Source of the DNA: Lewinellaceae bacterium
Lineage (GTDB): Bacteria; Bacteroidota; Bacteroidia; Chitinophagales; Saprospiraceae
Assembly (NCBI GenBank): GCA_947476195.1
Contig: CANJPT010000013.1
Coordinates: 1-58,982, forward strand
DNA length: 58,982 nucleotides
Direction of reading: 5' to 3'
Shown: positions 27,214-50,810 of the stretch, in pieces
Numbering within the stretch: the stretch's first letter is position 1
Layout of the letters: each line of letters opens with the position of its first letter
Position numbers and translations under genes: made by a program
The notes under the pieces: generated by a model
Seen by the model: the letters and a program-made list of their open reading frames with translations, nothing else
What the model was told of the DNA's origin: nothing
Databases searched by the model: none

Positions 27214-27258
27214 CGTGATAAATATCACGTTGCACTATTTACCTATTCCTGACATTTG
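27214..27258 (+). promoter_or_regulatory. Site S1: Crp/Fnr-type palindrome plus -7 box upstream of the TsdA-like gene
   Basis: CGTGATAAATATCACG (27214-27229; 7-bp arms, 2-bp centre) lies 21 bp before GACATTTG (27251-27258), a TAnnTTTG-like -7 box. The coding start is 19 bp further on. The same arrangement recurs at six other places (S2-S7). The rest of the 385-bp divergent region 26893-27277 shows no gene. Confidence 0.7.
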
Positions 27259-27277
27259 TAGTGATAATGGGCTTTAG

Positions 27278-28492
27278 ATGCATTTGGCTGACCCCAATAC
27301 AAGTATTTCAGGGATGTTAAATGTAACAAATATTCCTTTATTTATGGGTAAAAACGTTTATTTTCCTGTTTTGTGGCTGGTTATTGCGGCCGTGGTTATT
27401 GGCATTGTAGCAGTCATTGCTGCAGTATCCTTTTACAAAAAGAGCATGGTGGATGATCCAATGCTCAGGGGGCGCTTTTATCGGCAATTCGTTTTTTTAA
27501 CGAAGATCAATTTATTGTTGTGGGTATTGGCCCTGGCCATGACAGGAAGTGGCTTCGGCGCCTGGTATTGGGAGGATAAAACGCAGGAAATTGCCGTGGC
27601 TGAGGCGCGTGCCCGACTGACCCCGATCTTTGATAAAAGCAAAATATGGCAAGCGCCAGACCCCTACCTCGCCGAAACAGACAACGAAAAAAATCTCATC
27701 GCTTATGGCCGCGATCTGGTGGCCCGTACCCAGGATTATTTTGGGGAAAGCGGTCTGGTGCGTCCGGGAAGTATCAATGGCATGAACTGCCAGAACTGCC
27801 ACCTGGAAGCAGGTATCAAACCTTTTGGCAATAATTATTTCGCGGTAGAAAGCACCTATCCACAAATGCGCGCCCGATCCGGTGCACTCGAAACCATTCC
27901 AAAACGGGTGAATGACTGTTTTCAGCGTAGCCTCAACGGACAGCCTATTGACACCACCAGCCGAGAGATGCGGGCCATTATAGCCTATATGCACTGGTTG
28001 GGTACTGGTGTTCCAAAAGGCGAAAAACCCAAAGGCACAGGAATAATGGAGGTGCCTTTTCTTGGTCGTGCCGCCGACCCCGTGAAGGGCCAGCAGATCT
28101 ACGCCGCAAAATGTGCTTCCTGCCATGCCGCCGACGGACATGGTTTGCCTATGCCAGACAGTCCTCGAAATTATCCACCGCTTTGGGGCGACAAGAGTTA
28201 CAACGAAGCGGCTGGCTTGTTCCGGATGTCTCGCTTTGCTGGCTATGTCAAAGCGAATATGCCCTTTGGCGCCACGTATCAAAACCCACAATTAACGGAT
28301 GAAGAAGCCTGGGATGTGGCGGCATTTGTCAATTCTCAACCACGCCCGAAGCACCCGTTTCTCCAAACCGATTGGCCCAAGATCGAGAAAAAACCGTTTG
28401 ACCATCCGTTTGGTCCGTTTAAGGATACCTTTCCGGAAGCACAGCACAAGTATGGGCCGTTTGGGCCGATTGTGGCTTTTTATAAAAAATAG
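27278..28492 (+). CDS. TsdA-like dihaem cytochrome c (thiosulfate dehydrogenase family)
   Basis: 404 residues. Two N-terminal membrane segments (VLWLVIAAVVIGIVAVIAAV and INLLLWVLALAMTGSGFGAW) anchor a periplasmic dihaem domain. Haem sites are CQNCH (C171-H175) and CASCH (C279-H283). Family hallmarks are NGMNCQNCHLEAGIKPFGNN, STYPQMRARSG and KRVNDCFQRSLNG; Cys214 in the last one is at the place where TsdA has its unusual cysteine axial ligand of haem 1. TsdA joins two thiosulfates to tetrathionate or runs in reverse. Membrane anchoring suggests direct coupling to the quinone pool or an oxidase. It leads an apparent operon with the SoxB-like gene and has palindrome S1 in its promoter. An internal ATG at 27314 is an alternative start. 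Confidence 0.82.
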   Translation: MHLADPNTSISGMLNVTNIPLFMGKNVYFPVLWLVIAAVVIGIVAVIAAVSFYKKSMVDDPMLRGRFYRQFVFLTKINLLLWVLALAMTGSGFGAWYWEDKTQEIAVAEARARLTPIFDKSKIWQAPDPYLAETDNEKNLIAYGRDLVARTQDYFGESGLVRPGSINGMNCQNCHLEAGIKPFGNNYFAVESTYPQMRARSGALETIPKRVNDCFQRSLNGQPIDTTSREMRAIIAYMHWLGTGVPKGEKPKGTGIMEVPFLGRAADPVKGQQIYAAKCASCHAADGHGLPMPDSPRNYPPLWGDKSYNEAAGLFRMSRFAGYVKANMPFGATYQNPQLTDEEAWDVAAFVNSQPRPKHPFLQTDWPKIEKKPFDHPFGPFKDTFPEAQHKYGPFGPIVAFYKK

Positions 28493-28497
28493 ATTTT

Positions 28498-28662
28498 GGA
28501 CGGTGCACGGTATACGGTGAACGGTATACGGTGCACGGTGCACGGGGTCTCCACTCCCTCCACCGTAAACCGTCCACCATATACCGTTCACCGTATACCG
28601 TTCACCGTCCACCATATACCGTTCACCGTTCACCGTATACCGTTCACCGTAAACCGTTCCAA
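28498..28662. repeat. Word-repeat hairpin array between tsdA-like and soxB-like genes
   Basis: About 165 bp built almost only from permutations of the words ACGGT, ATACGGTG and GTGCACGG on the left, and their complements (CACCGT, ATACCGTTC) on the right, around a short unique centre (ggtctccactccctcc). The two halves can fold into one long imperfect hairpin. It fills the entire gap between two cotranscribed genes, so it would appear in the mRNA. Replication slippage or a palindromic repeat family are both possible origins. Confidence 0.75.
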
Positions 28663-28664
28663 CC

Positions 28665-30368: not shown

Positions 30369-30388
30369 AATATATTCAATCTACTACC

Positions 30389-31258
30389 ATGAACTACTGG
30401 CAAACCTTCACCCAAAGTTTCACAGGCTACGCAAGTTACCTGGCCAATGAAGTACTCAACCCGCACTGGGGCAATTATTTCTACTGGCTCATTGCCATTT
30501 CGTTGGCCGTATATGTCCTCGAGCTGCTATTCCCCTGGCGGAAGAACCAACCAAACATTCGCGAAGATTTTTGGCTGGATACCTTTTACATGTTTTTCAA
30601 TTTCTTCCTGTTTGGACTGGTAGGGTACAACGCGGTTTCCAGTGTCGTTTCACAGGGGTTCACTGATTTTCTGGCCAACGTTTTTGGTGTCCGGAATCTG
30701 GTAGCGATCAATATTGCCCAGACGCCGCATTGGGTGCAATTGCTGATTTTATTCCTGGTGCGCGATTTTGTGCAATGGAACACACACCGGTTGCTGCACA
30801 GGGTTCCGTTCCTTTGGGAGGTGCACAAAGTACACCACTCGGTGCGTGAAATGGGGTATGCTGCCCACCTGCGCTACCATTTCGGGGAAACCCTCGTATA
30901 TCGTACCATTGAATATTTGCCCCTGGCGATGATCGGCTTCGGGATCCAGGATTTTTTGCTGGTACACCTGTTCACGATCGTAATCGGTCACCTGAACCAC
31001 GCCAATATTTACCTGCCACTCGGGCCTTTGAAGTATATCTTCAACAATCCGCAGATGCACATCTGGCACCACGTCAAGGATATTCCGAAGGATAGTTACG
31101 GTATCAATTACGGCATTTCATTATCCCTATGGGACTATCTGTTCGGCACCGCCTGGATCCCTGGCGACGGGCGCGACATCAAACTTGGGTTCGAAGAAGT
31201 CGACACTTACCCACACGGTTTTTTTAGTCAAATGCTCAAACCTTTTCAACGAAAATGA
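30389..31258 (+). CDS. Sterol desaturase / fatty acid hydroxylase family membrane protein
   Basis: 289 residues with about four membrane helices and the three histidine clusters of the di-iron hydroxylase superfamily: HRLLHR, HKVHHS and HIWHH. The enzyme would hydroxylate or desaturate a lipid at the cytoplasmic membrane. It starts 20 bp after the SoxB-like stop, with the next gene overlapping its stop codon, so it appears to be in the same operon. Its link to sulfur metabolism is not evident; the substrate is unknown. Confidence 0.87.
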   Translation: MNYWQTFTQSFTGYASYLANEVLNPHWGNYFYWLIAISLAVYVLELLFPWRKNQPNIREDFWLDTFYMFFNFFLFGLVGYNAVSSVVSQGFTDFLANVFGVRNLVAINIAQTPHWVQLLILFLVRDFVQWNTHRLLHRVPFLWEVHKVHHSVREMGYAAHLRYHFGETLVYRTIEYLPLAMIGFGIQDFLLVHLFTIVIGHLNHANIYLPLGPLKYIFNNPQMHIWHHVKDIPKDSYGINYGISLSLWDYLFGTAWIPGDGRDIKLGFEEVDTYPHGFFSQMLKPFQRK

Positions 31259-31482
31259 AGCCCTGGAACGATTGGAAGTTGGTGATTATGGCTTGTCTGT
31301 TTCTTGGGCTTGCCCCTTTTATCCCAGAACCGCACCTGCTGGGCAAACTTCGCTGGGTCGCTGGCGGTGCTATCGGGATGCAAGCTTTGGACTGGTTTGA
31401 TCTCCTATGGCATAGCTTACCCTGGGTGTTGCTGATGAGGCTGGTGTTTTTGAAAATCTTTGGTTTGCCTAAAATTGTATAG
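31255..31482 (+). CDS. Small membrane protein translationally coupled to the hydroxylase
   Basis: 75 residues; the ATG overlaps the preceding TGA in an ATGA arrangement, strong evidence that it is a real coupled gene. Two hydrophobic segments (LVIMACLFLGLAPFIP and LLWHSLPWVLLMRLVFLKIF) suggest a two-helix membrane protein. No domain was recognised. It may be an accessory of the sterol-desaturase-like enzyme. Confidence 0.7.
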   Translation: MKPWNDWKLVIMACLFLGLAPFIPEPHLLGKLRWVAGGAIGMQALDWFDLLWHSLPWVLLMRLVFLKIFGLPKIV

Positions 31483-31583
31483 GTTTATGGCGCTGTTTGT
31501 CCTGTATTCGCCGTGCTGCGACAGGACGAACAGAGCCAAACAATCGTATTAACAGGATAATTCTGATTCAACACATCCCAACT

Positions 31584-31856
31584 ATGACACACATATTCGA
31601 AGTAGAAAACATCAAATGCGGCGGTTGCATGAACACCATCCGCAAAGGGCTCGAGCAAATGCAGGGCGTCAAGGCTGCCCAACCTGAAAACGAGCACGGT
31701 ACTGTCACAGTAGACTTCGATGAGCAAGAGGTCTCCGCTGCTGACATTGGCCTCAAACTATCCGATATGGGTTATCCCCTTCTGGGTGAGAACAATTTTG
31801 GAAAAAAAGCCAAATCATTCGTGAGTTGTATGATCGGACGCGTGACTGCGGAATAA
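31584..31856 (+). CDS. Small heavy-metal-associated (HMA) domain protein
   Basis: 90 residues from the ATG at 31584; an upstream in-frame extension to 31497 has no domain content. The ferredoxin-like HMA fold starts at once (THIFEVENIKCGGCMNTI) with a CxxC metal site, and the usual second-half pattern (GTVTVDFDEQEVSAADIGLKLSDMGYP) follows. A C-terminal tail adds one more Cys (SFVSCMIG). It is probably a copper or other soft-metal chaperone, CopZ-like. No copper ATPase is adjacent. Confidence 0.82.
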   Translation: MTHIFEVENIKCGGCMNTIRKGLEQMQGVKAAQPENEHGTVTVDFDEQEVSAADIGLKLSDMGYPLLGENNFGKKAKSFVSCMIGRVTAE

Positions 31857-31951
31857 GTAAATAGGGCAGATGCGCAGATAGATTATTCTCAAAGGGGGAA
31901 ATTTTGCCTGCAAAGTTTTGAACGAGATATCTACCTTGGGGGGGCTATTAT

Positions 31952-32584
31952 ATGTATATGGAGAATTACCGTCATTTGTTTCCTGATCTTGAAGAAGCCT
32001 TACTACGAGAATTACAGGAGAAAGGCCGCATCTTAACCGCAAAAGCAGGCCAGGTTTTGATTCAAAGCGGCCAGAATATTCGCAATACCATGATCGTGCT
32101 GGATGGCCTGATCAAACTCTATCGTGAAAATGATGAGGGCAGCGAATTTTTTATGTACCATCTCCACCCTGGCGACGGCTGTGCACTTTCTTTGATCTGT
32201 GATCGAAGTTTTAAGCTTAGTTCCGTTACCGCGAAAGCTGTGACGGATTCCGTATTATTGGTTGTGCCGCTGGAACATACCGAAAACTGGATGCGTCAAT
32301 ACCGCACCTGGTATCATTTCGTGGTAGGAACTTACCGTCGACGGTACGAGGAATTGTTGGAAACCATCGATCATATCGCCTTTCAAAACATGGATGAACG
32401 GCTTGAGTTTTATCTGCGTCGCCACCAACAGGCGCTCCAAACCAATGTGCTTGAAATTACCAATACCCAGATTGCGCAGGAACTCAATTCCTCCCGCGAG
32501 GTCATTTCGCGTTTGATGAAAAAACTCGCAGAAGACGGCAAAGTACGTTTGATGAAAAACGGGATTGAGATTTTGAAACCCTAA
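31952..32584 (+). CDS. Crp/Fnr-family transcription regulator, candidate regulator of the sulfur island
   Basis: 210 residues: a cyclic-nucleotide-binding-like beta-roll (about 15-125), a dimerisation helix, and a Crp-type winged helix. The recognition helix reads NSSREVISRLMKKL, placing R182, E183 and R187 exactly like R180, E181 and R185 of E. coli CRP, the residues that contact GTGA half-sites. Palindromes with CGTGA arms (S1-S7) occur across this island. There is no Fnr-type Fe-S cysteine set, but Cys77 and Cys83 (GDGCALSLICD) form a close pair that could respond to persulfide or redox state (inference). ATG 31952 or 31958 can start it. Its last 4 bases overlap the convergent DUF779 gene. 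Confidence 0.88.
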   Translation: MYMENYRHLFPDLEEALLRELQEKGRILTAKAGQVLIQSGQNIRNTMIVLDGLIKLYRENDEGSEFFMYHLHPGDGCALSLICDRSFKLSSVTAKAVTDSVLLVVPLEHTENWMRQYRTWYHFVVGTYRRRYEELLETIDHIAFQNMDERLEFYLRRHQQALQTNVLEITNTQIAQELNSSREVISRLMKKLAEDGKVRLMKNGIEILKP

Positions 32585-32952
32585 TCAGCCTTTGGGAAAA
32601 GTGCCGCATACTCCGCATCAGTGAGCAATCTACTTCGCACCATAAACCGCAATCCAAGCGGAATTTCCAGCGAAAAACTTGCCCCGCGACCGGGCACTAC
32701 GTCTATTGTAAGGTGGGTGTGCTTCCAGTATTCATATTGATCCCTGCTCATGTAAAATGGGCAGCCATGAATATATCCTAACAGCACATCGGATTTGCCG
32801 GTGATGAATTCACCTTCCGGAAAACACATCGGCGCCGAGCCGTCACAGCAGCCTCCGCTCTGGTGAAACATCAGCGGGCCGTGCTGTGCGCGCAACTGGT
32901 CGATGACCGCAGCAGCAGCGGGGGTGATTTCTACCCTTGAAATTTTTTCCAT
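32581..32952 (-). CDS. DUF779 family protein (aldehyde dehydrogenase companion)
   Basis: 123 residues. It contains the family's cysteine-rich segment HQSGGCCDGSAPMCFPEGEF and the terminal HTHLTIDVVPGRGASFSLE. Genes of this family are regularly found next to ExaC/AldB-type aldehyde dehydrogenases, as here, where it follows the dehydrogenase on the same strand. The biochemical role is unknown; the conserved Cys suggests metal or thiol chemistry. A terminator stands between the two genes, so it may also have its own promoter. Confidence 0.88.
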   Translation of the reverse strand: MEKISRVEITPAAAAVIDQLRAQHGPLMFHQSGGCCDGSAPMCFPEGEFITGKSDVLLGYIHGCPFYMSRDQYEYWKHTHLTIDVVPGRGASFSLEIPLGLRFMVRSRLLTDAEYAALFPKAD

Positions 32953-33013
32953 GGTGCTTGTTGTTAATTACTCTATTGCAAACAGGATAGTTTTTGCATC
33001 ACTCAAATCATAG

Positions 33014-33051
33014 TAAAAAACACCGGGCAGCCTACAGCAGCCACCCGGTGT
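33014..33051 (-). terminator. Rho-independent terminator after the aldehyde dehydrogenase gene
   Basis: On the minus strand ACACCGGG and CCCGGTGT pair around a 16-base loop and are followed by TTTTTT. It lies between the aldehyde dehydrogenase and DUF779 genes. Confidence 0.8.
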
Positions 33052-33075
33052 CGTTATCGAAGCAAAATTTATCTA

Positions 33076-34605
33076 CTAAAAAAAGCCGAGCTTGTTCTTG
33101 TCGTACGAGATCAACATGTTCTTGTTCTGACGATAATGGTTGAGCATCATCAGGTGCGTTTCCCGACCAAATCCGGATTTTTTATAGCCGCCAAACGGCG
33201 CGTGTGCCGGATAGGCATGGTAGCAATTGACCCACACCCGTCCGGCCTGAATGGCTCGTGGAATGGTGTATAATTCATGTGCATCTCGGGTCCAAAGTCC
33301 TGCACCCAGACCATACAAGGTATCATTGGCGATGGCCAGCGCTTCTTCGGTAGTTTTGAAAGTAGTCACAGAAGTAACCGGCCCGAAGATCTCTTCCTGG
33401 AAAACGCGCATTTTATTGTGGCCTTTGAAGATCGTAGGCTGTACGTAATAACCCTTTTCCAGTCCGCTGTTCAAAGAAAAAGCCTCTCCGCCGCAAAGAA
33501 TCTCGGCGCCCTCTTGTCGTCCGATCTCCATATAACTCAGAATTTTTTCATACTGATCATTGGAAGCCTGCGCGCCCATCATAGTCTCCGGATCGAGTGG
33601 GTGGCCAATTTTGATGGCTTTTGTGCGGGCGATCACGCGTTCCATGAAGCGATCGTAAATGGATTCATGCACGAGAATACGCGATGGGCAGGTGCAAACT
33701 TCACCTTGATTGAAGGCAAACAGCACCGCGCCTTCCACACATTTATCGAAGAATGCATCGTCTGCATCCGCGATAGAAGGCATAAAAATATTGGGTGATT
33801 TGCCTCCCAATTCCATGGTAACCGGATTCAGGTTTTCTGAAGCGTATTGCATGATCAGACGTCCGGTAGTCGTTTCTCCGGTAAAGGCCACTTTATTGAT
33901 TCTGCTGGATTGGGCCAGAGGCTTGCCGGCTTCGATCCCAAATCCATTGATCACATTGAGCACGCCGTCCGGAAGAATACCCTGGATAAGTTCCATGAGG
34001 ATGAGGATGCTGGTAGGCGTCTGCTCAGCTGGTTTGACGATGGTGCAGCAACCTGCGGCCAGCGCCGGAGCGATTTTCCAGGCTGCCATGAGCAGTGGGA
34101 AATTCCAGGGAATGATCTGCGCGACCACTCCGATGGGTTCTTTGATATTCATGGAGACCGTGTGGGCATCCAGTTCTACCACCGTGCTTTCTTCTGCACG
34201 GATCACGCCTGCGTAGTAACGAAAGTGGTCTACTACGAGCGGAACGTCGGCTGCAAGGGTTTCGCGGATGGCTTTTCCATTGTCGATGGTTTCTACCGTA
34301 GCCAGGTATTCGAGGTTTTTCTCCACCACATCTGCAATTTTCAGGAGCATATTGCTGCGCTCCGTCGCAGAGGTACGTGCCCATGCGGGAAATGCTTTGT
34401 GCGCGGCATCCAGGGCTAGTTCCACGTCTTTGTGGTTGGAGCGGGCTACCTGAGTGAAGGCCTTTCCATCGATCGGGGAGATGTTGTCGAAATACGCGCC
34501 ATCCACCGGAGCCACCCATTTGCCACCGATAAAGTTATCGTACCGCGCTTTGAATGTCGGGCGCGCAACCAACGTACTTGTTTTTTCTTTTTCCAAAACT
34601 GCCAT
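33076..34605 (-). CDS. NAD-dependent aldehyde dehydrogenase (ExaC/AldB type)
   Basis: 509 residues, full-length ALDH superfamily. Visible motifs are the cofactor-binding [20 protein letters not shown], the general-base region [13 protein letters not shown], and the catalytic-cysteine region [12 protein letters not shown] typical of the acetaldehyde dehydrogenase subgroup. It oxidises acetaldehyde and similar short aldehydes to acids in the cytoplasm. It is divergent from an AraC regulator and followed by DUF779, a recurrent trio. A TACCTTTG -7 box lies at 34655-34662 on its strand. Confidence 0.93.
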
Positions 34606-34654
34606 AGGTCATGATATTATTAATATGAATTGAAAAATTTAATTCTGAATGAGA

Positions 34655-34767
34655 CAAAGGTATCGGTAGCTTTGGGGGATAATATTTTCCTGCAATATCG
34701 TATGAGTGAACAATCGTATCATTTTTGAAGACCATTTTCGGTTTTGGAATGGAGTGTGGTAACTTTG
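34655..34767. promoter_or_regulatory. Divergent promoter region with ATCGTAT operator repeats
   Basis: A TACCTTTG box (34655-34662, minus strand) serves the aldehyde dehydrogenase, and a TAACTTTG box (34760-34767, plus strand) serves the AraC gene. Between them ATCGTAT is repeated directly at 34697-34703 and 34713-34719 (16-bp period, within the longer words CAATATCGTAT and ACAATCGTAT). Direct repeats of this kind are typical AraC-family operators. The plus-strand box also fixes the AraC start to codons after about 34773. Confidence 0.65.
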
Positions 34768-34785
34768 TTTGTAGAAATAATAAAA

Positions 34786-35718
34786 ATGGCCAGATCTGGA
34801 GATGTAAATATGAATTATTCTGTTCAGCACGAGACAAGGCTTCGGCATTTGTTTGACCATCGGGACACGCTGGTGGAAAGCCGTAAGGTCTTTGCCTTTG
34901 ATACTGCTGAGCTTAATTTGTTTGAGACGGTACAACGCTCGGAGCAATTTGCTTTACGCTTCCCTGATCCGGTTATTGCGATCATGCTGAAAGGGAAAAA
35001 AGTGATGCATCTTGGTCAGGAACAAGGCTTTGATTTTTTGCCGGGCCAATCCGTGATCCTCAATAGCCATGAGCGAATGGTCATAGACTTTCCGGAAGCA
35101 GAAGAGGCCAATCCAACCCGATGTATTGCGCTCACCCTTTCTTCCGATTTGATCCAACGAACGGTGGAGCGTGCCAACGACCAGTTCACGCGACTGGATG
35201 GCGCCAGCTGGTCGCTGGATTATTGCAATTATTTCCTGAGCAACGATGATAATCTGGATGCGCTCGTGCGCCGTCTGATGTATCTCTACATGGAGGATGT
35301 GTACGGGAAAAAAGTGCTGACCCAGCATGGTTTGGAAGAACTGGTGTTGCGCATCATGCAAACCCAGGCAAGACAGATGTTGCTCACCACCGATTCGCCC
35401 AACCGTCATCGATTGGGCGAAGTGCTGCAGTTTATTCGCCGAAACATTTCCGAAAACCTGTCCATTGACGATCTGGCCCGCCGCAGCTATTTGTCTCGGC
35501 CGCAATTTTTTCGTGTTTTTAAACAAGAAATGGGCATTACCCCGGTAGAATTGGTCAACAAGGAGCGGTTGCGTTATGCCAAGCGGATCTTGTTAGAAAG
35601 CCGGGATATTTCCCAGGCTTGTTTTGCTGCGGGCTTCAATAGCCTTTCCTATTTTCATCGTATTTTCAAAAAAGAAGAACGCAAGACCCCGATGATTTGG
35701 TTGGAAGAAAATAGATAG
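34786..35718 (+). CDS. AraC-family transcription regulator
   Basis: About 310 residues with an N-terminal cupin-like sensing domain and a C-terminal pair of helix-turn-helix motifs (LSIDDLARRSYLSRPQFFRVFKQEMG and DISQACFAAGFNSLSYFHRIFKKE). The reading frame opens at 34744, but that lies upstream of the TAACTTTG promoter box, so the ATG at 34786 (or 34810) is used. It stands divergently from the aldehyde dehydrogenase it probably controls through the ATCGTAT repeats. The inducer is unknown, plausibly an aldehyde or alcohol. Confidence 0.88.
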   Translation: MARSGDVNMNYSVQHETRLRHLFDHRDTLVESRKVFAFDTAELNLFETVQRSEQFALRFPDPVIAIMLKGKKVMHLGQEQGFDFLPGQSVILNSHERMVIDFPEAEEANPTRCIALTLSSDLIQRTVERANDQFTRLDGASWSLDYCNYFLSNDDNLDALVRRLMYLYMEDVYGKKVLTQHGLEELVLRIMQTQARQMLLTTDSPNRHRLGEVLQFIRRNISENLSIDDLARRSYLSRPQFFRVFKQEMGITPVELVNKERLRYAKRILLESRDISQACFAAGFNSLSYFHRIFKKEERKTPMIWLEENR

Positions 35719-35794: not shown

Positions 35795-35840
35795 CGTGAC
35801 AAATATCTCAGTCAAGTACCTCCAACTGCTCCCACATTTG
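35795..35840 (+). promoter_or_regulatory. Site S4: Crp/Fnr-type site plus -7 box upstream of tauE/safE
   Basis: CGTGACAAATATCTCA (35795-35810; left arm perfect, right arm weakened) is 22 bp upstream of CACATTTG (35833-35840), the same geometry as S1-S3. The start codon is at 35915. Confidence 0.6.
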
Positions 35841-35914: not shown

Positions 35915-36742
35915 ATGGAAATCATAGGCTATTTCGCGTCGATGCTGATCGGCGTTTCCCTCGGACTCATTGGCGGCGGGGGCAGTATTTTAACAGTACC
36001 GGTTCTGGTTTATCTTTTTGACGTGGATCCGGTGCGGGCTACGGCTTATTCGCTTTTTATTGTCGGCGCCACCAGTCTTGTGGGAACTTATCCCAAGTAT
36101 CGGGACGGAATGGTCAACCTTAAAACGGCAATTATTTTTGGTATTCCAGCTATTTTGGCTGTGTATGCTACAAGGGCTTTTTTGGTGCCGATGATTCCTA
36201 ATCCTGCGTTTAGCATCGGCAGTTTTGTGGTGTCCAAGGCCATGCTTATGATGGGTATTTTTGCCACACTGATGGTATTTGCCTCCTATTCAATGATCCG
36301 CGGAAAGAAAAGTGGCCTGGAGGAGAAGGAGTCCGATGGGCCTCAAAAATTTAATTATCCCATGATTTTGATGGAAGGAGCTGTTGTGGGTATACTTACG
36401 GGTCTGGTAGGTGCCGGAGGCGGATTTTTGATCATTCCAGCGTTGGTATTGTTTAGCAAACTGCCCATGAAGCAAGCCGTCGGCACTTCGCTGCTCATCA
36501 TTGCCGCCAAATCACTTATTGGCTTTACCGGCGACTTGTCGCACTATGAAATGGATTGGACGTTGCTGGGGATCATCACCGCACTGGCCATCGCAGGGAT
36601 ATTTATCGGCAACAGACTCAGCCGCAATGTGGACGGCGAAAAACTCAAGAAAGCATTCGGTTGGTTTGTGCTCGTGATGGGGATTTATATCCTGATCAAA
36701 GAACTGGTGCTCAACCCTGCTGCTGCTGGCATGGGGCATTAG
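35915..36742 (+). CDS. Sulfite exporter TauE/SafE family protein
   Basis: 275 residues with about eight membrane helices and two copies of the family's glycine-rich re-entrant motif, LIGGGGSILTVPVLVY and LVGAGGGFLIIPALVLF, each followed by the KQAVGTSLLIIA-type loop (VRATAYSLFIVGA in the first half). The family exports sulfite, sulfonates or organosulfur compounds. Sulfite is the product of persulfide dioxygenase, which is encoded downstream, so export of sulfite is the likely job. Promoter site S4 places it in the candidate regulon. The MFS gene follows after 50 bp in the same direction. Confidence 0.88.
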   Translation: MEIIGYFASMLIGVSLGLIGGGGSILTVPVLVYLFDVDPVRATAYSLFIVGATSLVGTYPKYRDGMVNLKTAIIFGIPAILAVYATRAFLVPMIPNPAFSIGSFVVSKAMLMMGIFATLMVFASYSMIRGKKSGLEEKESDGPQKFNYPMILMEGAVVGILTGLVGAGGGFLIIPALVLFSKLPMKQAVGTSLLIIAAKSLIGFTGDLSHYEMDWTLLGIITALAIAGIFIGNRLSRNVDGEKLKKAFGWFVLVMGIYILIKELVLNPAAAGMGH

Positions 36743-36792: not shown

Positions 36793-37974
36793 ATGACGCA
36801 AGATTTAAAAATCATTACCCGAAACATTTGGATACTCTCTCTGGTCAGCCTATTCACCGATATGGCCAGCGAGATGTTATATCCGGTCATGCCGGTTTAC
36901 CTCAAAAGCATTGGCTTTTCTATTTTGTTAATCGGGGTGCTGGAAGGTGTTGTAGAGGCCACCGCAGGCCTGAGTAAAGGCTATTTTGGTAACCTCAGTG
37001 ATCGAACGGGCCTGCGTAAACCATTTGTGCAGATGGGCTACGCACTCAGTGCCCTTTCCAAGCCGATGATGGCGGTTTTTACTTACCCTTTATGGGTCTT
37101 TTTTGCCCGAACCACCGACCGCCTGGGTAAAGGCATTCGTACCGGCGCCCGCGATGCCTTACTCTCCGATGAAGCCACGCCTGAAACCAAAGGCAGGGTA
37201 TTTGGTTTTCACCGATCTATGGATACCATCGGAGCGGTGATCGGGCCGCTGCTGGCGCTCATTTTTCTGCAGTTCTATCCTGGAAATTATACGACCCTTT
37301 TTTTTCTGGCCTTCCTGCCGGGCATTCTGGCGATCGTGTTTACTGCGCTGATTCAGGAAAAAAAGAAATTGCAGACAGCTTCTGTGATCAAACCCGGCTT
37401 TTGGGATTTCCTGCAATACTGGCGGCGCAGCCCGGCACAATACCGGCAATTGGCCAGCAGCCTGCTTTTTTTCGCCTTGTTTAATAGCTCTGATGTATTT
37501 CTGTTGCTGCAGGTCAAAGCGGCAGGCCTGAGCGACAGTGCTGTGATCGGGATGTATATTTTTTACAACCTCGTATATGCCGCTGCTGCTTATCCAATGG
37601 GCTTGCTGGCCGATCAATTCGGCATGAAACGCGTGTTCGTATCTGGCCTATTATTATTTGCTGCCGTCTATGCCGGTATGGCATTCGCATCCACCTGGCC
37701 AGTTTTTGCTGCGCTGTTTTTTGTTTACGGACTGTATGCCGCTGCCACGGAAGGCGTTGCGAAAGCCTGGATGACCAATATTTCAGCCAAAGAAGATACG
37801 GCCACTGCCATCGGAACCTATACCGCGTTTCAAAGTGTAAGCGCCTTGCTGGCGAGCAGTCTGGCAGGTTTTATATGGTATGCTGCAGGCCCGTGGGCTG
37901 TGTTTAGCATCAGTGCCGTAGCCGGGGCATTAGTAGCCGTATATATAGGGTTTCTGAAGAATTTTGAAAAATAA
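36793..37974 (+). CDS. Major facilitator superfamily transporter
   Basis: 393 residues with about 12 membrane helices. The MFS loop 2-3 signature is present in the form GYFGNLSDRTGLRKPFVQMGY, and a second one, MGLLADQFGMKRVFVSGLLL, occurs in the C-terminal half. RLGKGIRTGARDALLSDEA is typical of a subfamily often seen beside TauE in Bacteroidota. The substrate cannot be read from sequence. It is probably cotranscribed with tauE/safE. Confidence 0.87.
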   Translation: MTQDLKIITRNIWILSLVSLFTDMASEMLYPVMPVYLKSIGFSILLIGVLEGVVEATAGLSKGYFGNLSDRTGLRKPFVQMGYALSALSKPMMAVFTYPLWVFFARTTDRLGKGIRTGARDALLSDEATPETKGRVFGFHRSMDTIGAVIGPLLALIFLQFYPGNYTTLFFLAFLPGILAIVFTALIQEKKKLQTASVIKPGFWDFLQYWRRSPAQYRQLASSLLFFALFNSSDVFLLLQVKAAGLSDSAVIGMYIFYNLVYAAAAYPMGLLADQFGMKRVFVSGLLLFAAVYAGMAFASTWPVFAALFFVYGLYAAATEGVAKAWMTNISAKEDTATAIGTYTAFQSVSALLASSLAGFIWYAAGPWAVFSISAVAGALVAVYIGFLKNFEK

Positions 37975-37982: not shown

Positions 37983-38028
37983 CGTGACTCAAGTCACGCA
38001 GGGAGCGCTTCAGACTGCCCCACCTTTG
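37983..38028 (+). promoter_or_regulatory. Site S2: Crp/Fnr-type palindrome plus -7 box upstream of the disrupted ETHE1-like gene
   Basis: CGTGACTCAAGTCACG (37983-37998; perfect 7-bp arms) is 22 bp before CACCTTTG (38021-38028). The gene it drives starts at 38081 and is a pseudogene. Confidence 0.7.
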
Positions 38029-38080: not shown

Positions 38081-38825
38081 ATGTTTTTCCAACACGTTTA
38101 CGACAAAACTTTGGCACAGGCCAGTTATTTCATAGGTTGCCAGAAGGCGGGCGTTGCCATGGTTATTGATCCAAAAAGGGATGTTGATCATACTACTGGA
38201 CATTTTTGTTTTGCCCCCAGACCTATAAGGTTTCCAAAAACCTTATAGGTCTCGATTTTAGAAAATGTCCAGTAGTGTGGATGTTGATACCTACCTCGAA
38301 ATTGCCCGACAAAACAATATGATTATCACCCATGTTGCAGAAACACATATTCATGCCGACTTCCTTTCCGGCTCACGGGAACTTGCTGCACTCACGGGCG
38401 CAAAGCAGATGTACCAATCCATCAAAAAATTCGCAGAGCTCCCAGACTACATTCAGGTCTGGCCTGGCCACGGCGCAGGTTCCGCCTGCGGAAAAGCACT
38501 GGGTGCTGTCCCAAGTTCTACCGTAGGTTATGAAAAGATCCGAAACTGGGCCCTTCAATACCCCACCAACGAACCTGGTTTTGTGCAGTACCTCCTGGCT
38601 GACCAACCGGAGCCGCCCAAATACTTTGCTATGATGAAAAAGCTCAACAAGGTGGATCGCTCCTTGCTGACTGAAGTACCGAAGCAAAAAAAACTAAGCA
38701 CGAGTGAATTGGTCGCCAATCTGGGGACAGGCGTAAAACTTATTGATGCCCGCAACAAGCTTGATTTTGCTGCAGGCATGAATGAATGGGTGAATACCAG
38801 GAATCCTATCATTTCGGAAAACTGA
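38081..38825 (+). pseudogene. ETHE1-like persulfide dioxygenase/rhodanese gene disrupted by a MITE
   Basis: The first 36 codons ([20 protein letters not shown] ... DPKRDVD) are intact. They are then interrupted by MITE copy C plus its 9-bp duplication (100 bp in total, so the frame shifts). After the insert the frame resumes DVDTYLEIARQNN, THVAETHIHADFLSGSRELA. Independent of the MITE, about 85-90 residues are missing between ALTGAKQMY and QSIKKFAELPDY, removing the HTPGHT and GDxxFxGDxGRPD metal motifs, and the rhodanese domain stops early (KLIDARNKLDFAAGMNEW). Two or three separate lesions mean no activity. The residual sequence is of a different ETHE1 subtype from the intact gene just downstream, so it is not a recent duplicate. 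Confidence 0.9.
38189..38279 (+). mobile_element. 91-bp MITE, copy C, inside the ETHE1-like gene
   Basis: Starts CATACTACTGGACATTTT and ends AAAATGTCCAGTAGTGTG, with the internal AGACCTATAAGGTTT / AACCTTATAGGTCT hairpin. The perfect 9-bp duplication GATGTTGAT lies at 38180-38188 and 38280-38288. Removing 100 bp restores the reading frame RDVDTYLEIA across the site, which proves the element is an insertion. Confidence 0.95.
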
Positions 38826-38842: not shown

Positions 38843-38888
38843 CGTGACTTTAATCACGGAATCCATCTTCTATGCGGGGTTACCTTTG
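38843..38888 (+). promoter_or_regulatory. Site S3: Crp/Fnr-type palindrome plus -7 box upstream of the ETHE1-rhodanese fusion
   Basis: CGTGACTTTAATCACG (38843-38858) is 22 bp upstream of TACCTTTG (38881-38888), a perfect TAnnTTTG box. The chosen ATG is at 38931; any start upstream of 38888 would precede the promoter. Confidence 0.75.
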
Positions 38889-38930: not shown

Positions 38931-40352
38931 ATGAAAATCGAGCAAATCTATACTGGCTGTTTGGCACATGCAGCCTATTATCTGGAAAGCAATGGTGAAG
39001 CAGCCATTTTTGACCCGCTTCGGGAAATAGATCCATACCTCAATCGTGCTGCAAAAAGCAATGCCCGGATAAAGTATGTTTTTGAGACCCATTTCCATGC
39101 CGACTTTGTTAGCGGGCACTTGGACCTGGCAAAGAAAACGGGTGCACAAATAGTTTTTGGCCCTACTGCAAAACCTGGGTATGATGCTATCACGGCAGAA
39201 GACAACCAGATTTTCAAGGTTGGCGACTACACGGTGAAGGTCATCCATACACCAGGGCACACGATGGAAAGCACGACGTATTTGTTGATAGATGAAAATG
39301 GAAAGGAACACGGCATCATTTCTGGTGATACCCTGTTTATTGGAGACGTTGGGCGACCTGATTTGGCGCAACACGTCGTTGCCGAATTGACGCAGGAAAA
39401 ATTGGCCGCACACTTGTACGACTCGCTCCGAAACAAAATTATGCCACTTAGTGATGACCTTATTGTATACCCCAACCACGGAGCTGGGAGTGCCTGCGGC
39501 AAAAACATGAGCAAAGAAACGACCGACACATTGGGGCATCAAAAAATGGTCAATTATGCACTTAACCCGGAACTGACCAAAGAACAGTTTATCAAAGAAA
39601 TTTTGAGCGGGCTGACCGCGCCTCCAGGCTATTTCCCGAAAAATGTGCTGATGAATATCAAGGGGTATGAAAGTTTCGAGACTGTAATGGAGCGCGGCAC
39701 AAATCCACTTTCGCCCCGTGCGTTTGAGGCAGCAGCCAATGAAACGGAAGCCTTGGTGCTGGATACCCGGGATGCCCAGAAATTTTCGGAAGGATTTGTC
39801 CCCAACGCCATCAATATCGGTATTGACGGAAACTTTGCACCTTGGGTGGGTGCCCTGATCCCAGATATTAAGCAGCAAATTCTACTGGTAACCGATCCGG
39901 GCCGTGAACAAGAGGTCGTGACTCGCCTGGCTCGCGTTGGCTATGACTACTGTATCGGCTATCTGGATGGCGGTTTCGATGCCTGGAAAAAGGCTGGAAT
40001 GGAAATTGACAACATTAAACGGGTCACTGTAGATCAATTGGCCGATATTCTGAAAGCCGCGCCTCAAACTCCTGTGTATGATGTGCGCAAACAAAGTGAA
40101 TACAATAGCGAACACGTGGAGCAGGTTGAAAATGCACCCTTGGATATTATCAATGAATCCATGCTTAGCATTCCAAAAGACAAAACAGTTTTTGTACACT
40201 GCGCAGCTGGGTATCGCTCCATGATCTTTGTAAGTATCCTGCGGGCACGTGGGTATGATAATTTGGTGGATGTCGTAGGCGGCTTCAAAGCAATTAAAGA
40301 CAGTACTAAATTCAAGATTTCGGACTATGTATGTCCGACTACCTTGTTGTAA
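38931..40352 (+). CDS. ETHE1-like persulfide dioxygenase fused to two rhodanese domains
   Basis: 473 residues. The metallo-beta-lactamase domain (1-240) has the iron-site motifs THFHADF (H54, H56, D58), HTPGHT, SGDTLFIGDVGRPDL and the C-terminal NHGAGSACGKN. It oxidises glutathione or protein persulfide to sulfite. The first rhodanese domain (about 285-365) lacks the catalytic Cys (LLVTDPGREQE). The second (about 370-465) is active-type with FVHCAAGYRS. The active rhodanese would feed or use sulfane sulfur next to the dioxygenase site. The start is set by promoter S3. The single rhodanese gene follows 87 bp later. Confidence 0.93.
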   Translation: MKIEQIYTGCLAHAAYYLESNGEAAIFDPLREIDPYLNRAAKSNARIKYVFETHFHADFVSGHLDLAKKTGAQIVFGPTAKPGYDAITAEDNQIFKVGDYTVKVIHTPGHTMESTTYLLIDENGKEHGIISGDTLFIGDVGRPDLAQHVVAELTQEKLAAHLYDSLRNKIMPLSDDLIVYPNHGAGSACGKNMSKETTDTLGHQKMVNYALNPELTKEQFIKEILSGLTAPPGYFPKNVLMNIKGYESFETVMERGTNPLSPRAFEAAANETEALVLDTRDAQKFSEGFVPNAINIGIDGNFAPWVGALIPDIKQQILLVTDPGREQEVVTRLARVGYDYCIGYLDGGFDAWKKAGMEIDNIKRVTVDQLADILKAAPQTPVYDVRKQSEYNSEHVEQVENAPLDIINESMLSIPKDKTVFVHCAAGYRSMIFVSILRARGYDNLVDVVGGFKAIKDSTKFKISDYVCPTTLL

Positions 40353-40439: not shown

Positions 40440-40826
40440 ATGGCTTGGACATCATTTTTGAAAAACCTGATCGGCGGCGACAAAACAGAGGTTGCTGAAC
40501 TCGACAATACAGCAGATACCGGCGCAGCCCGCAATGAAAATCTTTCGGGTCGTGCATTTAAAAAACAACTGGAAGAAGCGGACAATGCCATTTTGTTGGA
40601 TGTACGCACCGCTGGAGAATTTTCTGGCGGCACCATCCCCGGTTCAAAAAACATTGACTTTCTTTCACCTTCATTCGCTACTAAAGCCAAGACCCTGAAT
40701 AAGGATGCAACGTATTTTGTGTTCTGCCGAAGCGGTAACCGCAGTGGACAAGCTTGTAAAATGATGTATAATATGGGCTTTAATGTGCGGAATTTGTCGG
40801 GCGGGATTGGTGCTTTTCCGGCTTAA
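40440..40826 (+). CDS. Single-domain rhodanese sulfurtransferase
   Basis: 128 residues, cytoplasmic, no signal peptide. The active loop is FVFCRSGNRSGQA with the cysteine at residue 96, and the fold signatures LLDVRTAGEFSGGTIPGSKNID and NLSGGIGAF are present. The N-terminal TSFLKNLIGG segment is an extra short helix. It lies behind the ETHE1-rhodanese fusion in the same direction, separated by a weak AAACCTCG/CGAGGTcTTT repeat that may act as an attenuator, and is followed by a strong terminator, so the two probably form one transcription unit. Confidence 0.92.
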   Translation: MAWTSFLKNLIGGDKTEVAELDNTADTGAARNENLSGRAFKKQLEEADNAILLDVRTAGEFSGGTIPGSKNIDFLSPSFATKAKTLNKDATYFVFCRSGNRSGQACKMMYNMGFNVRNLSGGIGAFPA

Positions 40827-44724: not shown

Positions 44725-44809
44725 AAATTATTTGGGTTCTATTTGTTTATGGTCTTTCAAAACCTACCCACGAAGTTAATGAAAATATATGATTTTTTTC
44801 AAACACATG

Positions 44810-46422: not shown

Positions 46423-46429
46423 TTAATTT

Positions 46430-46505
46430 AGAGCTTAATCGGGATTTTGATCCGAGTCGAAAGCGAGCAAATAATATTTCAATTGAGGCGAAATTTGAAG
46501 CCCGA
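46430..46505. repeat. Dispersed repeat, copy 1 (partner near 51985-52050 and 52112-52140)
   Basis: This segment is about 73 percent identical over 64 bp to 51988-52051 (shared words GGATTTTG, GAGCAAAT, TTTCAATTGAGG). Its first 25 bp (TTAGAGCTTAATCGGGATTTTG) recur inverted at about 52113-52140. Both copies are near MITE sequences. Short frames across it look non-functional. It may be the remnant of a repeated small gene. Confidence 0.5.
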
Positions 46506-46615
46506 ATCGAAAACTAAGAACAAGTTGTTTGAGGCAAAATGCTGCTATGCCTATTCCAAATGTTATCCTGAACCTTTCGTTAAGATTAATCTGCAAGTTA
46601 TAGGGTAGCAGGATA

Positions 46616-46658
46616 CAAAAACGGTGACGGCTATCATTCTCCAGAATGATAGCCGTCA
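46616..46658 (-). terminator. Perfect 16-bp stem terminator for the kelch-like gene
   Basis: TGACGGCTATCATTCT (46625-46640) and AGAATGATAGCCGTCA (46643-46658) are perfect complements with a 2-base centre. On the minus strand they are followed by CCGTTTTTG. It serves the gene ending at 46794; MITE copy D now lies between that stop codon and this terminator. Confidence 0.85.
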
Positions 46659-46682
46659 TTACGATAAAAATAGTCCACCAAC

Positions 46683-46773
46683 CATACTACTGGACATTTT
46701 TGTTTTGTCTCCAGACCTATAAGGTTTTTGCAAACCTTATAGGTCTCGATTTTAGAAAATGTCCAGTAGTCTG
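46683..46773 (+). mobile_element. 91-bp MITE, copy D
   Basis: Starts CATACTACTGGACATTTT, ends AAAATGTCCAGTAGTCTG, carries the internal AGACCTATAAGGTTT / AACCTTATAGGTCT hairpin, and is flanked by a perfect 9-bp duplication TCCACCAAC (46674-46682 and 46774-46782). It is inserted 20 bp downstream of the stop codon of the kelch-like gene. Confidence 0.95.
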
Positions 46774-46793
46774 TCCACCAACAAAACACCCCT

Positions 46794-48455: not shown

Positions 48456-48468
48456 AAGCTGTTTGATT

Positions 48469-50166
48469 TTAGGCCACGAGTGCTGGCGCTCTAACCGCTA
48501 CCGGCTTTGCCCGAACCATTTCCTGATCACAGATTTGCCATAACTGATACCCCCCGGATAAATTTACGATCGAGTTATACCCATTCTGGTTCAAGATCCT
48601 TTGAGCCAGATAACCTCGTAAGCCCGCCCGACAATAGGTGTAGATCTTTTTGTTTGGGTCAATCTCGTTGATCCGGTCTCGCAAATCATCCACCGGAATG
48701 TTGAGGGCATTTTCGATGTGGCCAGCTTCAAATTCTTCTTTGGTTCTGACATCTATCAACAGATCATCTTTGGTAATTTGATTAAATTGATCCCAATAAT
48801 AGAGGTTTAGTCGGCCCTGTAAGATGTTTTCGGCTACAAACCCAGCCATATTAATCGGGTCTTTGGCTGAGGAATAGGGTGGTGCGTATGCATGTTCAAA
48901 TTCCGCCAACTCGTAGATGGTACTATTCCGTTGGATGGCAGAAGACAAAATGTCGATCCTTTTGTCAACGCCTTCATAGCCAGCTATTTGAGCACTTAAC
49001 AGCCGCCCGTCTTCCGGACAGAAAGCTATCTGAATGCTCATTTGTCGGGCACCCGGGAAATAACCGGCGTGAGAACCACTATGCGTCGTAGAAACAATGT
49101 GCTTAATATCGGTTTTTGTCAGATTCTTGGAGGCTGTTCCGGCACTTGCAACGGTCATATCAAATACCTTTACGATGGCGGTATTGATCGCACCATGGTA
49201 CTTTTGGACATTTCCCAACACGAGGTTGTTTGCACAAATGCGCCCTTGTTTATTGGCAGGGCCAGCCAGGTAGGTATTCATAGATTGATGCGTAATTGGA
49301 TTGCTGAATTCTATGGCGTCACCTACGGCATAAATATCCGGGTTTGAGGTTTGTAAAAATTCATTCACCCAGATGCCTGATGCATCACCCAGTTTTAGCG
49401 CTGCCTGTACCGCCAATCTAGTATCTGGCCGGACACCGATAGACATTATCACTACATCAGCATCCAGTATGACCCCACTTTTTAGAAATACCTGAAGGGC
49501 AGCGTCCTGTTTTTCAAAGGCTGAAACGGCATCATTGAGTAACAGATGAACTCCTTTTTCCCGTATATGCTTCTGAACCATGGCTGCGATTGGATAGTCT
49601 AAGGGGGCTAAGATCTGGCTTCCCATTTCTATAACAGTGACATCCAGGCCAAGTTTATGCAGGTTTTCAGCCATTTCCAGTCCGATAAACCCTGCCCCAA
49701 TTACGACCGCTTTTTTTACATGCTTCTGTGCTATAAATCCTTTGATATAGTCTGTATCGGATACATTTCTTAGGGTAAAGATTCCTTCATTGTTGATACC
49801 AGGCAGTGGAGGTCTTATGGGTTCAGCACCTGGAGACAATACCAGTTTATCATAGGACTCAAGATAGGTCTTGCCGGTAATTTGATCTAAGGCTGTGACC
49901 GTTTTTGACGCCGGATCAATAGCGGTAACCTCCGTTCTGGTCCTGACATCTATATTAAACCTTTTATTGAACGCGGAAGCCGTTTGAACGAACAAAGTAT
50001 TTCGGTCTTTGATCACATCACCAATGTAATAAGGCAGGCCACAATTGGCGTAAGAAATATAGGCGCCTTTTTCAAAAATTACAATTTCAGCATGTTCGTC
50101 CATTCTTCTGAGTCTTGCGGCGGTGCTTGCGCCTCCTGCTACTGCTCCGATGATCACATATTTCAT
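48469..50166 (-). CDS. CoA-disulfide / persulfide reductase fused to a rhodanese domain
   Basis: 565 residues. The FAD/NAD(P)H reductase part (1-450) has the N-terminal FAD loop IIGAVAGGASTAARLRR, the redox-active single cysteine in SYANCGLPYYIGD (Cys42), the NAD loop VVIGAGFIGLEMAENL and the FAD loop VYAVGDAIEF. The C-terminal rhodanese (about 460-545) has YTYCRAGLRG with Cys512. This architecture is the CoADR-RHD / NADH-dependent persulfide reductase type, which reduces CoA or glutathione persulfides and polysulfides. Its promoter contains palindrome S5, placing it in the candidate regulon with the dioxygenase, which competes for the same persulfides. Confidence 0.92.
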   Translation of the reverse strand: MKYVIIGAVAGGASTAARLRRMDEHAEIVIFEKGAYISYANCGLPYYIGDVIKDRNTLFVQTASAFNKRFNIDVRTRTEVTAIDPASKTVTALDQITGKTYLESYDKLVLSPGAEPIRPPLPGINNEGIFTLRNVSDTDYIKGFIAQKHVKKAVVIGAGFIGLEMAENLHKLGLDVTVIEMGSQILAPLDYPIAAMVQKHIREKGVHLLLNDAVSAFEKQDAALQVFLKSGVILDADVVIMSIGVRPDTRLAVQAALKLGDASGIWVNEFLQTSNPDIYAVGDAIEFSNPITHQSMNTYLAGPANKQGRICANNLVLGNVQKYHGAINTAIVKVFDMTVASAGTASKNLTKTDIKHIVSTTHSGSHAGYFPGARQMSIQIAFCPEDGRLLSAQIAGYEGVDKRIDILSSAIQRNSTIYELAEFEHAYAPPYSSAKDPINMAGFVAENILQGRLNLYYWDQFNQITKDDLLIDVRTKEEFEAGHIENALNIPVDDLRDRINEIDPNKKIYTYCRAGLRGYLAQRILNQNGYNSIVNLSGGYQLWQICDQEMVRAKPVAVRAPALVA

Positions 50167-50243
50167 TTTGTAGATGTTTAAAAGTGTAGCCGATCAGGGA
50201 ATCACCTCAATGATTCACTTTTTTGCCGGTGTAAATCGATGGA

Positions 50244-50288
50244 CAAAATTACGCGTGCAGTTGGGGCGATTCCGTGATATATGTCACG
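50244..50288 (-). promoter_or_regulatory. Site S5: Crp/Fnr-type palindrome plus -7 box upstream of the persulfide reductase
   Basis: On the minus strand CGTGACATATATCACG (50288-50273) is 21 bp before TAATTTTG (50251-50244). The gene starts at 50166. Confidence 0.72.
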
Positions 50289-50311
50289 ACTAAGGAGTTT
50301 TGGTTCCTTTT

Positions 50312-50605
50312 CTATTGGATCAGAATGCAATAGCTATCTGATTCTGCGGTCACCTGGTGGATCGTATCTGGCGGAATTTCGGTATATTCCAAAGCCCAAA
50401 GGGGCCGTGCAATACCTTCTCCCAACTGTTCATACAGCACTGCACCTTCCATTACCAGCACCATGGCGGGCACTGGGCTTTTATGCTCTTTAAAAACTTC
50501 TCCCATGCGCAGGCGAATGGCGGTCAAACGGCCATTTTGAACCTTAAAAATGGGGCGAAAAATGGGCCCGGTCTGTTCGGATTCAAGCAATGCGGATAAA
50601 GTCAT
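50312..50605 (-). CDS. Small single-domain cupin protein
   Basis: 97 residues. The cupin pattern is visible: RLRMGEVFKEHKSPVPAMVLVMEGAVLYE (motif 1) and PDTIHQVTAESDSYCILI (motif 2) with metal-ligand histidines. Similar short cupins are encoded beside Bacteroidota sulfur or nitrogen-stress genes, but the substrate is unknown. It is upstream of the persulfide reductase on the same strand, separated by promoter S5, and has its own degenerate site S6. Confidence 0.82.
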   Translation of the reverse strand: MTLSALLESEQTGPIFRPIFKVQNGRLTAIRLRMGEVFKEHKSPVPAMVLVMEGAVLYEQLGEGIARPLWALEYTEIPPDTIHQVTAESDSYCILIQ

Positions 50606-50645
50606 AGGAAAAAGGTCTGGTTGCTGGAAGTATATAAATCACCAA

Positions 50646-50690
50646 CAAAGTTACCAACCCGGATTGCTATCGCTCCTGACCAGGGTCACC
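50646..50690 (-). promoter_or_regulatory. Site S6: degenerate Crp/Fnr-type site plus -7 box upstream of the cupin gene
   Basis: On the minus strand GGTGACCCTGGTCAGG (50690-50675) is 21 bp before TAACTTTG (50653-50646). The arms deviate (GGTGA/TCAGG) but the spacing equals that of the good sites. Confidence 0.5.
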
Positions 50691-50764
50691 CTCGTAGATG
50701 ATTGTACGGGAATCCGGTTGTAACGGGATACGACCCCCTGGTATCAACCCTTAATTATTGCCGC

Positions 50765-50810
50765 AATGACTTAAGGCAAGCGCCGTCCCCCTGCTACTCC
50801 CCGACCTTTG
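50765..50810 (+). promoter_or_regulatory. Site S7: weak Crp/Fnr-like site plus -7 box
   Basis: AATGACTTAAGGCAAG (50765-50780) matches site S2 at 11 of 16 positions and is 22 bp before GACCTTTG (50803-50810). It precedes a small broken gene at 50843. Weak on its own; noted because the spacing is the same. Confidence 0.35.

Follow-up and report, generated by a model that had tools for sequence, protein, structure and literature searches.

Does a palindrome repeated before several genes of sulfane-sulfur handling mark a regulon, and if it does, which protein would read it? The question is raised by the window analysed here, 58,982 nucleotides of contig CANJPT010000013.1 from a Lewinellaceae bacterium (assembly GCA_947476195.1), in which copies of the Crp/Fnr-type palindrome CGTGA-N6-TCACG stand at a fixed distance from -7 promoter boxes. 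We consider it likely that the cluster forms a local sulfane-sulfur regulon, and that the Crp/Fnr protein encoded at 31952-32584 would be its thiol-based class II activator, responding to sulfane sulfur. A preliminary description had already proposed a sulfur regulon with Crp-type sites, a proposal that our results support; it had left the regulator unnamed, whereas a Crp/Fnr gene sits in the cluster itself.

All four exact palindromes reported before were found again in the sequence. On the forward strand they precede the TsdA-like gene (palindrome 27214-27229 and box GACATTTG at 27251-27258, together 27214-27258), an interrupted ETHE1-like gene (37983-38028, box CACCTTTG) and an ETHE1-rhodanese fusion (38843-38888, box TACCTTTG), the last site lying inside a 507-amino-acid stop-to-stop frame that also holds the downstream gene. 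The fourth, on the reverse strand at 50273, precedes the persulfide reductase gene (50244-50288, box TAATTTTG). Scored by matches to the ten fixed letters of CGTGA-N6-TCACG, these four reach 10/10, and three others that had been grouped with them resemble them only in part. The near-palindrome CGTGACAAATATCTCA with box CACATTTG before tauE (35795-35840, forward strand, gap 22) and the weaker palindrome GGTGACCCTGGTCAGG with box TAACTTTG before a 97-amino-acid open reading frame (ORF) (50646-50690, reverse strand, palindrome at 50675, gap 21) match 8/10 letters, and the degenerate palindrome with box GACCTTTG at 50765-50810 (forward strand, gap 22) matches 6/10. Coordinates, boxes and spacings were as described for all seven, with a TTTG-type box 21 or 22 bp past each site; six gaps were recomputed by script, and both the gap and the score at 50765 were counted by hand. 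Counted from the palindrome to TTTG, the measure used below, these gaps to the 8-bp box correspond to offsets of 25 (gap 21) and 26 (gap 22). TTGCA was also seen directly 3' of the palindrome in three TsdA promoters with an exact palindrome.

From the palindrome centre it is 37 or 38 bp to the G of TTTG, and if transcription starts about 4 nt past TTTG, as we assumed, the centre would lie near -41; class II activator sites are centred near -41.5 and overlap the -35 region. This geometry had been suggested before; the spacing to the -7 box is fixed in relatives, the start itself being predicted.

Next, we compared the window with shuffled sequence and with the rest of its genome. Palindromes with at most two mismatches number 27 in the window, against a mean of 16.4 and a maximum of 24 in 100 dinucleotide shuffles. 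Six places combine at least 8/10 letters with TTTG at offset 25 or 26, whereas 200 single-base shuffles of 500-bp blocks averaged 0.33 such places and never exceeded 4, a shuffle count that may run a few low owing to the prefilter of the script. The window (about 59 kb) makes up 1.2% of the genome (4,759,867 bp, 224 contigs) and contains half (4) of its eight exact palindromes; of the remainder, all within open frames of 171-749 amino acids, none has a box by eye. The pattern CGTGAN6TCACN{26,27}TTTG was matched four times across the genome, each time within the window, and its reversed control once. An equal frequency of palindrome plus spaced box before unrelated genes, named beforehand as a refutation, was thus not seen.

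To compare promoters in relatives, we used 18 loci around homologues of the regulator (264,712 bp, 94 to 48% identity, 12 of them titled Saprospiraceae). They contain 36 palindromes of 9/10 or 10/10. In 30 of these TTTG follows at offset 25 (8) or 26 (22), and no other offset rises above 3; the reversed pattern gave nine sites, one with TTTG at 26. Lack of conservation in relatives had been named as a refutation of the regulon, and the promoters compared here keep the geometry. In 10 of the 18 loci (L069, L071-L075, L077, L083, L085, L086) the next recognised gene after the regulator is tauE or ETHE1-rhodanese with a palindrome between them, and in four further loci (L076, L078-L080) a carbonic anhydrase gene with a palindrome comes next.

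Gene by gene, with the window included and with a box and a palindrome score of 8/10 upwards required, the arrangement was present in 6/7 TsdA, 9/11 TauE, 4/4 short ETHE1, 9/12 ETHE1-rhodanese, 2/2 persulfide reductase and 2/3 YeeE-like promoters, in 6/6 carbonic anhydrase promoters (4 distinct, L148 and L149 being duplicates) and in 2/2 SulP promoters, which had been preselected by the pattern. The palindrome scores 9/10 in both TauE exceptions (L085 and L086), and in L085 the box is off by one letter, TAGTGTTG; in the three ETHE1-rhodanese exceptions it scores 8/10 or 9/10, and TTTG is missing at the expected place. A persulfide reductase homologue in L084 has an 8/10 palindrome with the spacing seen in the window. 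Control neighbours had no site with box: nucleotidase 0/7, and 0/17 together for ten other types, namely fatty-acid hydroxylase, DUF779, aldehyde dehydrogenase, AraC, MFS, thioredoxin-like, ResB/CcsA, P-type ATPase, multihaem cytochrome and Por-tail protein genes. The single-domain rhodanese gene likewise had no site of its own (0/3). A frame taken for an HMA gene contained 7 stops and is not among the types counted.

The carbonic-anhydrase-like genes of L076 (10995), L078 (6172), L079 (4861) and L080 (10688), which carry the site, are of the beta type and have a signal-peptide-like start. Relatives of beta-carbonic anhydrases include hydrolases of carbonyl sulfide and carbon disulfide, and a sulfur substrate for this protein is conceivable by analogy.

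The gene at 31952-32584, with tsdA on one side of it in the cluster and tauE on the other, encodes a Crp/Fnr protein by Pfam, most likely the regulator acting at the palindromes. It has a cyclic-nucleotide-binding-like domain and a Crp-type helix-turn-helix (HTH), the two marks of the Crp/Fnr superfamily; no ArsR or CsoR fold was matched in it. We aligned its 48 best matches, which include two duplicate pairs (L148 = L076, L149 = L078) and hence 46 distinct sequences. C77 and C83, six residues apart and the only cysteines of the window protein, are invariant in 48/48. FNR-type [4Fe-4S] proteins are marked by four conserved cysteines, and here there are two only. The residues R180, E181 and R185, which read DNA from the recognition helix in CRP, are kept in 48, 47 and 48 of the 48 homologues, respectively. 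CRP contacts cyclic AMP (cAMP) through E72, R82, S83, T127 and S128, of which the window protein lacks E72, S83, T127 and S128: E72 stands opposite a gap in 48/48 homologues, around which the alignment is uncertain, and R82 is replaced by K and S83, T127 and S128 by L. At R82, 15/48 homologues have R. Fold comparison returned the general CRP fold and nothing more specific.

A gene-blind scan of 150 genomes of the family with the exact pattern at true spacing gave 73 matches in 49 genomes, and at a wrong spacing (15-16 nt) 35. Outside the own genome there were 69 matches, of which 68 (all but G008:C402) were examined: 44 lie outside large ORFs and 21 before a gene of the regulon set (SulP 7, ETHE1-rhodanese 4, rhodanese 7, carbonic anhydrase 2, regulator 1), three of the seven rhodanese matches being due to the rhodanese domain of the reductase. 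SulP and carbonic anhydrase were added once they had been seen behind sites, and without them the count is 12/68; the test for lying inside an ORF (frames of at least 200 amino acids) is crude, L216 being counted inside though a SulP gene follows. At the wrong spacing, 30 of the 35 matches were examined, of which 8 lie outside large ORFs and 2 before a set gene, both of these also being true-spaced. Spacing and gene class are thus linked. Among the other matches we recognised by eye cysteine-dioxygenase-like (L245), DUF2892-like (L211) and thioredoxin (L119, L120) genes, and also genes without an obvious part in sulfur metabolism, such as formate-tetrahydrofolate-ligase-like and Dps-like ones. 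The claim that only sulfur genes and their neighbours have the site stands for the exact site in this genome, but in other genomes of the family the pattern is seen before such further genes as well. Fatty-acid-hydroxylase-like genes (by eye) also follow a match in L138 (352) and L246 (507), and the window has one (PF04116) close to the regulator, at 30389-31258; it is a possible further member of the regulon, in an obscure role.

The regulator clade has a match in 116/296 genomes of a phylum sample at E 1e-30 or better. In 28 of the 29 best-scoring phylum loci a set gene lies within 1.5 kb, L198 by porin alone and several by rhodanese-domain matches, against 0/5 for the other Crp/Fnr genes of the own genome (one flank was short at locus L034). 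Of 18 hand-picked regulator-to-target regions, 10 (L184, L186-L188, L190, L192, L193, L195, L197, L200), all from another family of the class (f5), which we would guess to be Flavobacteriaceae, carry TGTGATAAATGTTACT or a close variant at offset 25 with an xxnnTTTG box. A related palindrome at 25 was found in L084, L085, L199 and L201, two of them with a box other than TTTG; the chosen regions of L183, L185 and L203 have no site, and L182 is ambiguous. Judged from these regions, the half-site drifts between families and the spacing is fixed wherever the site is found. On balance we incline to the wider view that Bacteroidota possess a dedicated Crp/Fnr clade with an invariant C-x5-C that would act as sulfane-sulfur sensor and class II activator on TAnnTTTG promoters, with a drifting half-site and a fixed spacing.

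The spacing itself is shared by a second set of Fnr-like sites. These have the form TGAN6TCA, often TGATN4ATCA, stand at the same distance from TTTG boxes on contig C2 (36582-103379), and precede genes named by eye as universal-stress-like, P-type-ATPase-like and OsmC-like. The window has two matches on the reverse strand, at 44758-44801, by the P-type ATPase, and at 46616-46658. The class II spacing had been tied to sulfur genes; the sulfur set does bear it, but so do these TGAN6TCA sites elsewhere. Loose TGAN6TCA plus box occurs 79 times in the genome against 21 in the reversed control, and we set it aside as evidence for the sulfur set, with which the second set of sites is mixed in it. Perhaps this second set is an oxygen- or nitric oxide (NO)-type regulon.

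The mechanism that we propose would run as follows. Reactive sulfane sulfur (persulfide or polysulfide), most likely the signal, would modify C77/C83, in the part of the protein that corresponds to the cAMP pocket of CRP, and the Crp/Fnr dimer would then bind CGTGA-N6-TCACG some 41 bp ahead of the transcript start. From there it would recruit RNA polymerase in class II manner to promoters with a TAnnTTTG-type -7 box. Its predicted targets are tsdA, tauE, the two ETHE1-type dioxygenase genes and the persulfide reductase gene, to which relatives would add some sulfide:quinone oxidoreductase (SQR), YeeE/TsuA-like, SulP and carbonic anhydrase genes. With TsdA, ETHE1, rhodanese, persulfide reductase, TauE and SulP, this set would suit a pathway that leads from thiosulfate and persulfide through to sulfite, sulfate and export. 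Binding of the sites by the regulator, activation by that binding and the persulfide-on-cysteine signal are steps that we infer.

Several observations weigh against this regulon. At the promoter of the regulator itself a site was present in just 2/20 loci, and SQR (1/3), DUF2892-like (1/3) and Opr-like porin (3/9) promoters have one in a minority of cases; the nucleotidase gene of L086 has an 8/10 palindrome upstream, without a box. The counts in relatives are not all independent, with near-identical pairs L072/L073, L074/L075 and L085/L086 among them. In 27/30 ETHE1-rhodanese loci of the family, that is, in all but our own and two congeners, there is no 9/10 palindrome with box, and among 27 more distant family homologues of the regulator (L150-L176) a set gene lies within 1.5 kb of just 8. 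The 73 matches across the family only mildly exceed the 46 of the reversed control. The loop of C83 belongs to the less certain parts of the structural model (residues 81-90, mean predicted local distance difference test score, pLDDT, of 60), and five other HTH_Crp_2 genes in the own genome could share the sites. Finally, the exact palindrome is not enriched genome-wide (8 against 8 for the reversed control), nor is the looser GTGAN6TCAC (66 against 63), as would be expected if the palindromes of the window clustered by chance. It follows from the former count that clustering in the window matters here, not abundance; both shuffle tests are exceeded by the window and site and spacing are conserved in relatives, and we regard chance as a negligible explanation.

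The other HTH_Crp_2 genes, which bring the total in the genome to six, raise the alternative that a different Crp/Fnr protein, responding to oxygen or nitrogen oxides, uses the sites and that the local regulator controls something else, and the same-spaced TGAN6TCA sites that contig C2 has ahead of universal-stress-like and P-type-ATPase-like genes point the same way. Those sites are flanked differently, however (TGA...TCA without CG/CG); the site stands directly behind the local regulator gene in the 10/18 relatives listed above and none of the five other regulators has a set gene within 1.5 kb, all of which leaves this alternative improbable. To the idea that the palindromes are repressor sites, from which sulfur would release the regulator to unblock the promoters, we give a similarly small chance: sulfide-responsive SqrR and BigR are indeed described as ArsR-family repressors in the excerpted text of PMC9774590, but a centre near -41, with the start inferred from the box, lies over neither box nor start, and the spacing of 25-26 nt kept in 30/36 sites suggests contact with polymerase. 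More serious, though still unlikely in our judgement, is that the sites and the regulon stand and that the cysteine pair senses disulfide or redox stress, NO or a metal, the sulfur genes being induced secondarily. According to the excerpted text of PMC5499769, the two-cysteine Crp/Fnr protein Cmr of Mycobacterium tuberculosis is responsive to oxidation and to nitrosation, and DUF779-like, aldehyde dehydrogenase and P-type ATPase genes are also found in the cluster. These genes are without a site, however, and the genes that have one mostly handle sulfane sulfur, sulfite, thiosulfate or sulfate, so that a sulfane-sulfur signal remains the reading we prefer.

The genes of the cluster are as follows. 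On the forward strand, the TsdA-like cytochrome c (27278-28492), with SoxA-TsdA and cytochrome c domains (PF21342, PF00034), is followed by the Crp/Fnr-family gene of the proposed activator (31952-32584; PF00027, PF13545), a TauE/SafE sulfite exporter family gene (35915-36742; PF01925) and an MFS transporter gene without a site of its own (36793-37974; PF07690). DUF779-like, aldehyde dehydrogenase and AraC genes (32581-35718) separate the regulator from tauE in the window and in L070, and this stretch is absent between the two genes in L069 and L071. Then come the ETHE1-like gene recognised from sequence (38081-38825), the ETHE1-type persulfide dioxygenase gene fused to two rhodanese domains (38931-40352; PF00753, and PF00581 in two stretches), and the single-domain rhodanese gene (40440-40826; PF00581), which has no site of its own and probably belongs to the operon. 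A second ETHE1-rhodanese fusion, 64% identical, is present in the own genome at G000:C213:102-1505. On the reverse strand lie the gene of a CoA-disulfide/persulfide reductase with a C-terminal rhodanese domain (48469-50166; PF07992, PF00581), which matches NF010037 above and TIGR03385 below the respective cut-off, and the 97-amino-acid ORF (50312-50605), known from its translation and called a cupin in the preliminary description alone; besides the window itself, no homologue of it was found in the collected loci of relatives.

Parts of the regulon are decaying in this window, where an ETHE1 gene is broken, the tauE site has lost a letter and remnants follow the 50765 site. An 87-bp element resembling a miniature inverted-repeat transposable element (MITE), at 38191-38277 with arms at 38191 and 38262, interrupts the short ETHE1-like gene, whose promoter site is perfect; its homologue in L069 has no insert. 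The tauE site at 35795 is short of one letter that is kept in L069, L070 and L071, all of which carry CGTGACAAATATCACA at this position. The site at 50765 is probably a decayed one. Behind it, on the forward strand at 50843-51912, tblastn detected remnants of genes that belong to the regulon in relatives (37-75% identity over 21-70 residues): an Opr-like porin (50843-51028), a YeeE/TsuA-like protein (51075-51207) and a DUF2892-like protein (51703-51912). The homologue of the porin remnant in L071 has TGTGACTTTCGTCACG with GACCTTTG. The MITE-like element, about 87 bp long with arms CACTACTGGACATTTT, has further copies at 23680-23766 and 46685-46771 and single arms at 22801 and 51930; its arms gave 68 + 66 = 134 matches in the genome (at most one mismatch), and by eye the copy that breaks the ETHE1-like gene is bordered by a GGATGTTGAT repeat.

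If true, the proposed system would represent a class of persulfide sensor that is absent from the excerpted text of the review PMC9774590. No dedicated Crp/Fnr sensor of sulfane sulfur came up in our searches of an open-access library, though other papers may describe one. With a regulator named, a site of 16 bp, its constant spacing and a list of targets, reactive-sulfur sensing would become testable in a large biomass-degrading phylum, and in Saprospiraceae that only metagenomes have revealed the regulon would be readable from the sequence by itself. It would also offer a natural data set on the interplay of a class II activator with the unusual -7 promoters that Bacteroidota have.

Among known systems, the class II CRP promoters of Escherichia coli are similar in having a palindrome read by an R-E-x3-R helix with its centre near -41, here of an inferred start, and they differ in that most of the cAMP contacts checked are not conserved here. 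The outer letter of the E. coli CRP site is T/A, against C/G here, and Bacteroidota use a TAnnTTTG box where E. coli has TATAAT. The closest solved sequence (E 7e-20) is 3dv8, a Crp/Fnr protein of unassigned function from Eubacterium rectale, which belongs to another phylum than the window bacterium; it has C-x5-C in the same place, at 28% identity over the fold. Lactobacillus casei FLP is a thiol-based Crp/Fnr redox sensor whose two cysteines lie in other places. M. tuberculosis Cmr shares the Crp/Fnr fold, two cysteines and a thiol-based mode of action, but its cysteines are Cys36 and Cys131 and its targets, in the excerpted text of PMC5499769, are not sulfane-sulfur genes. Acinetobacter baumannii Crp shows that a Crp-like protein can be persulfidated in sulfide-treated cells, but it is close to CRP and Vfr, its Cys lies opposite the ligand pocket, and the excerpted text of PMC7315123 gives it no tie to sulfide genes. 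Known sensors of sulfane sulfur comprise SqrR/BigR, CstR, FisR, OxyR, LasR, OhrR and MarR-type proteins, several of which act through conserved cysteines that form di- to tetrasulfides (PMC9774590, in excerpt). SqrR/BigR (ArsR), CstR (CsoR-like), FisR, OxyR and the MarR-type proteins resemble the proposed regulator in controlling sulfide or persulfide genes; they differ from it in belonging to other protein families, among which the same excerpts name no dedicated Crp/Fnr protein, and in that SqrR/BigR are repressors, whereas the regulator of this window would be a class II activator.

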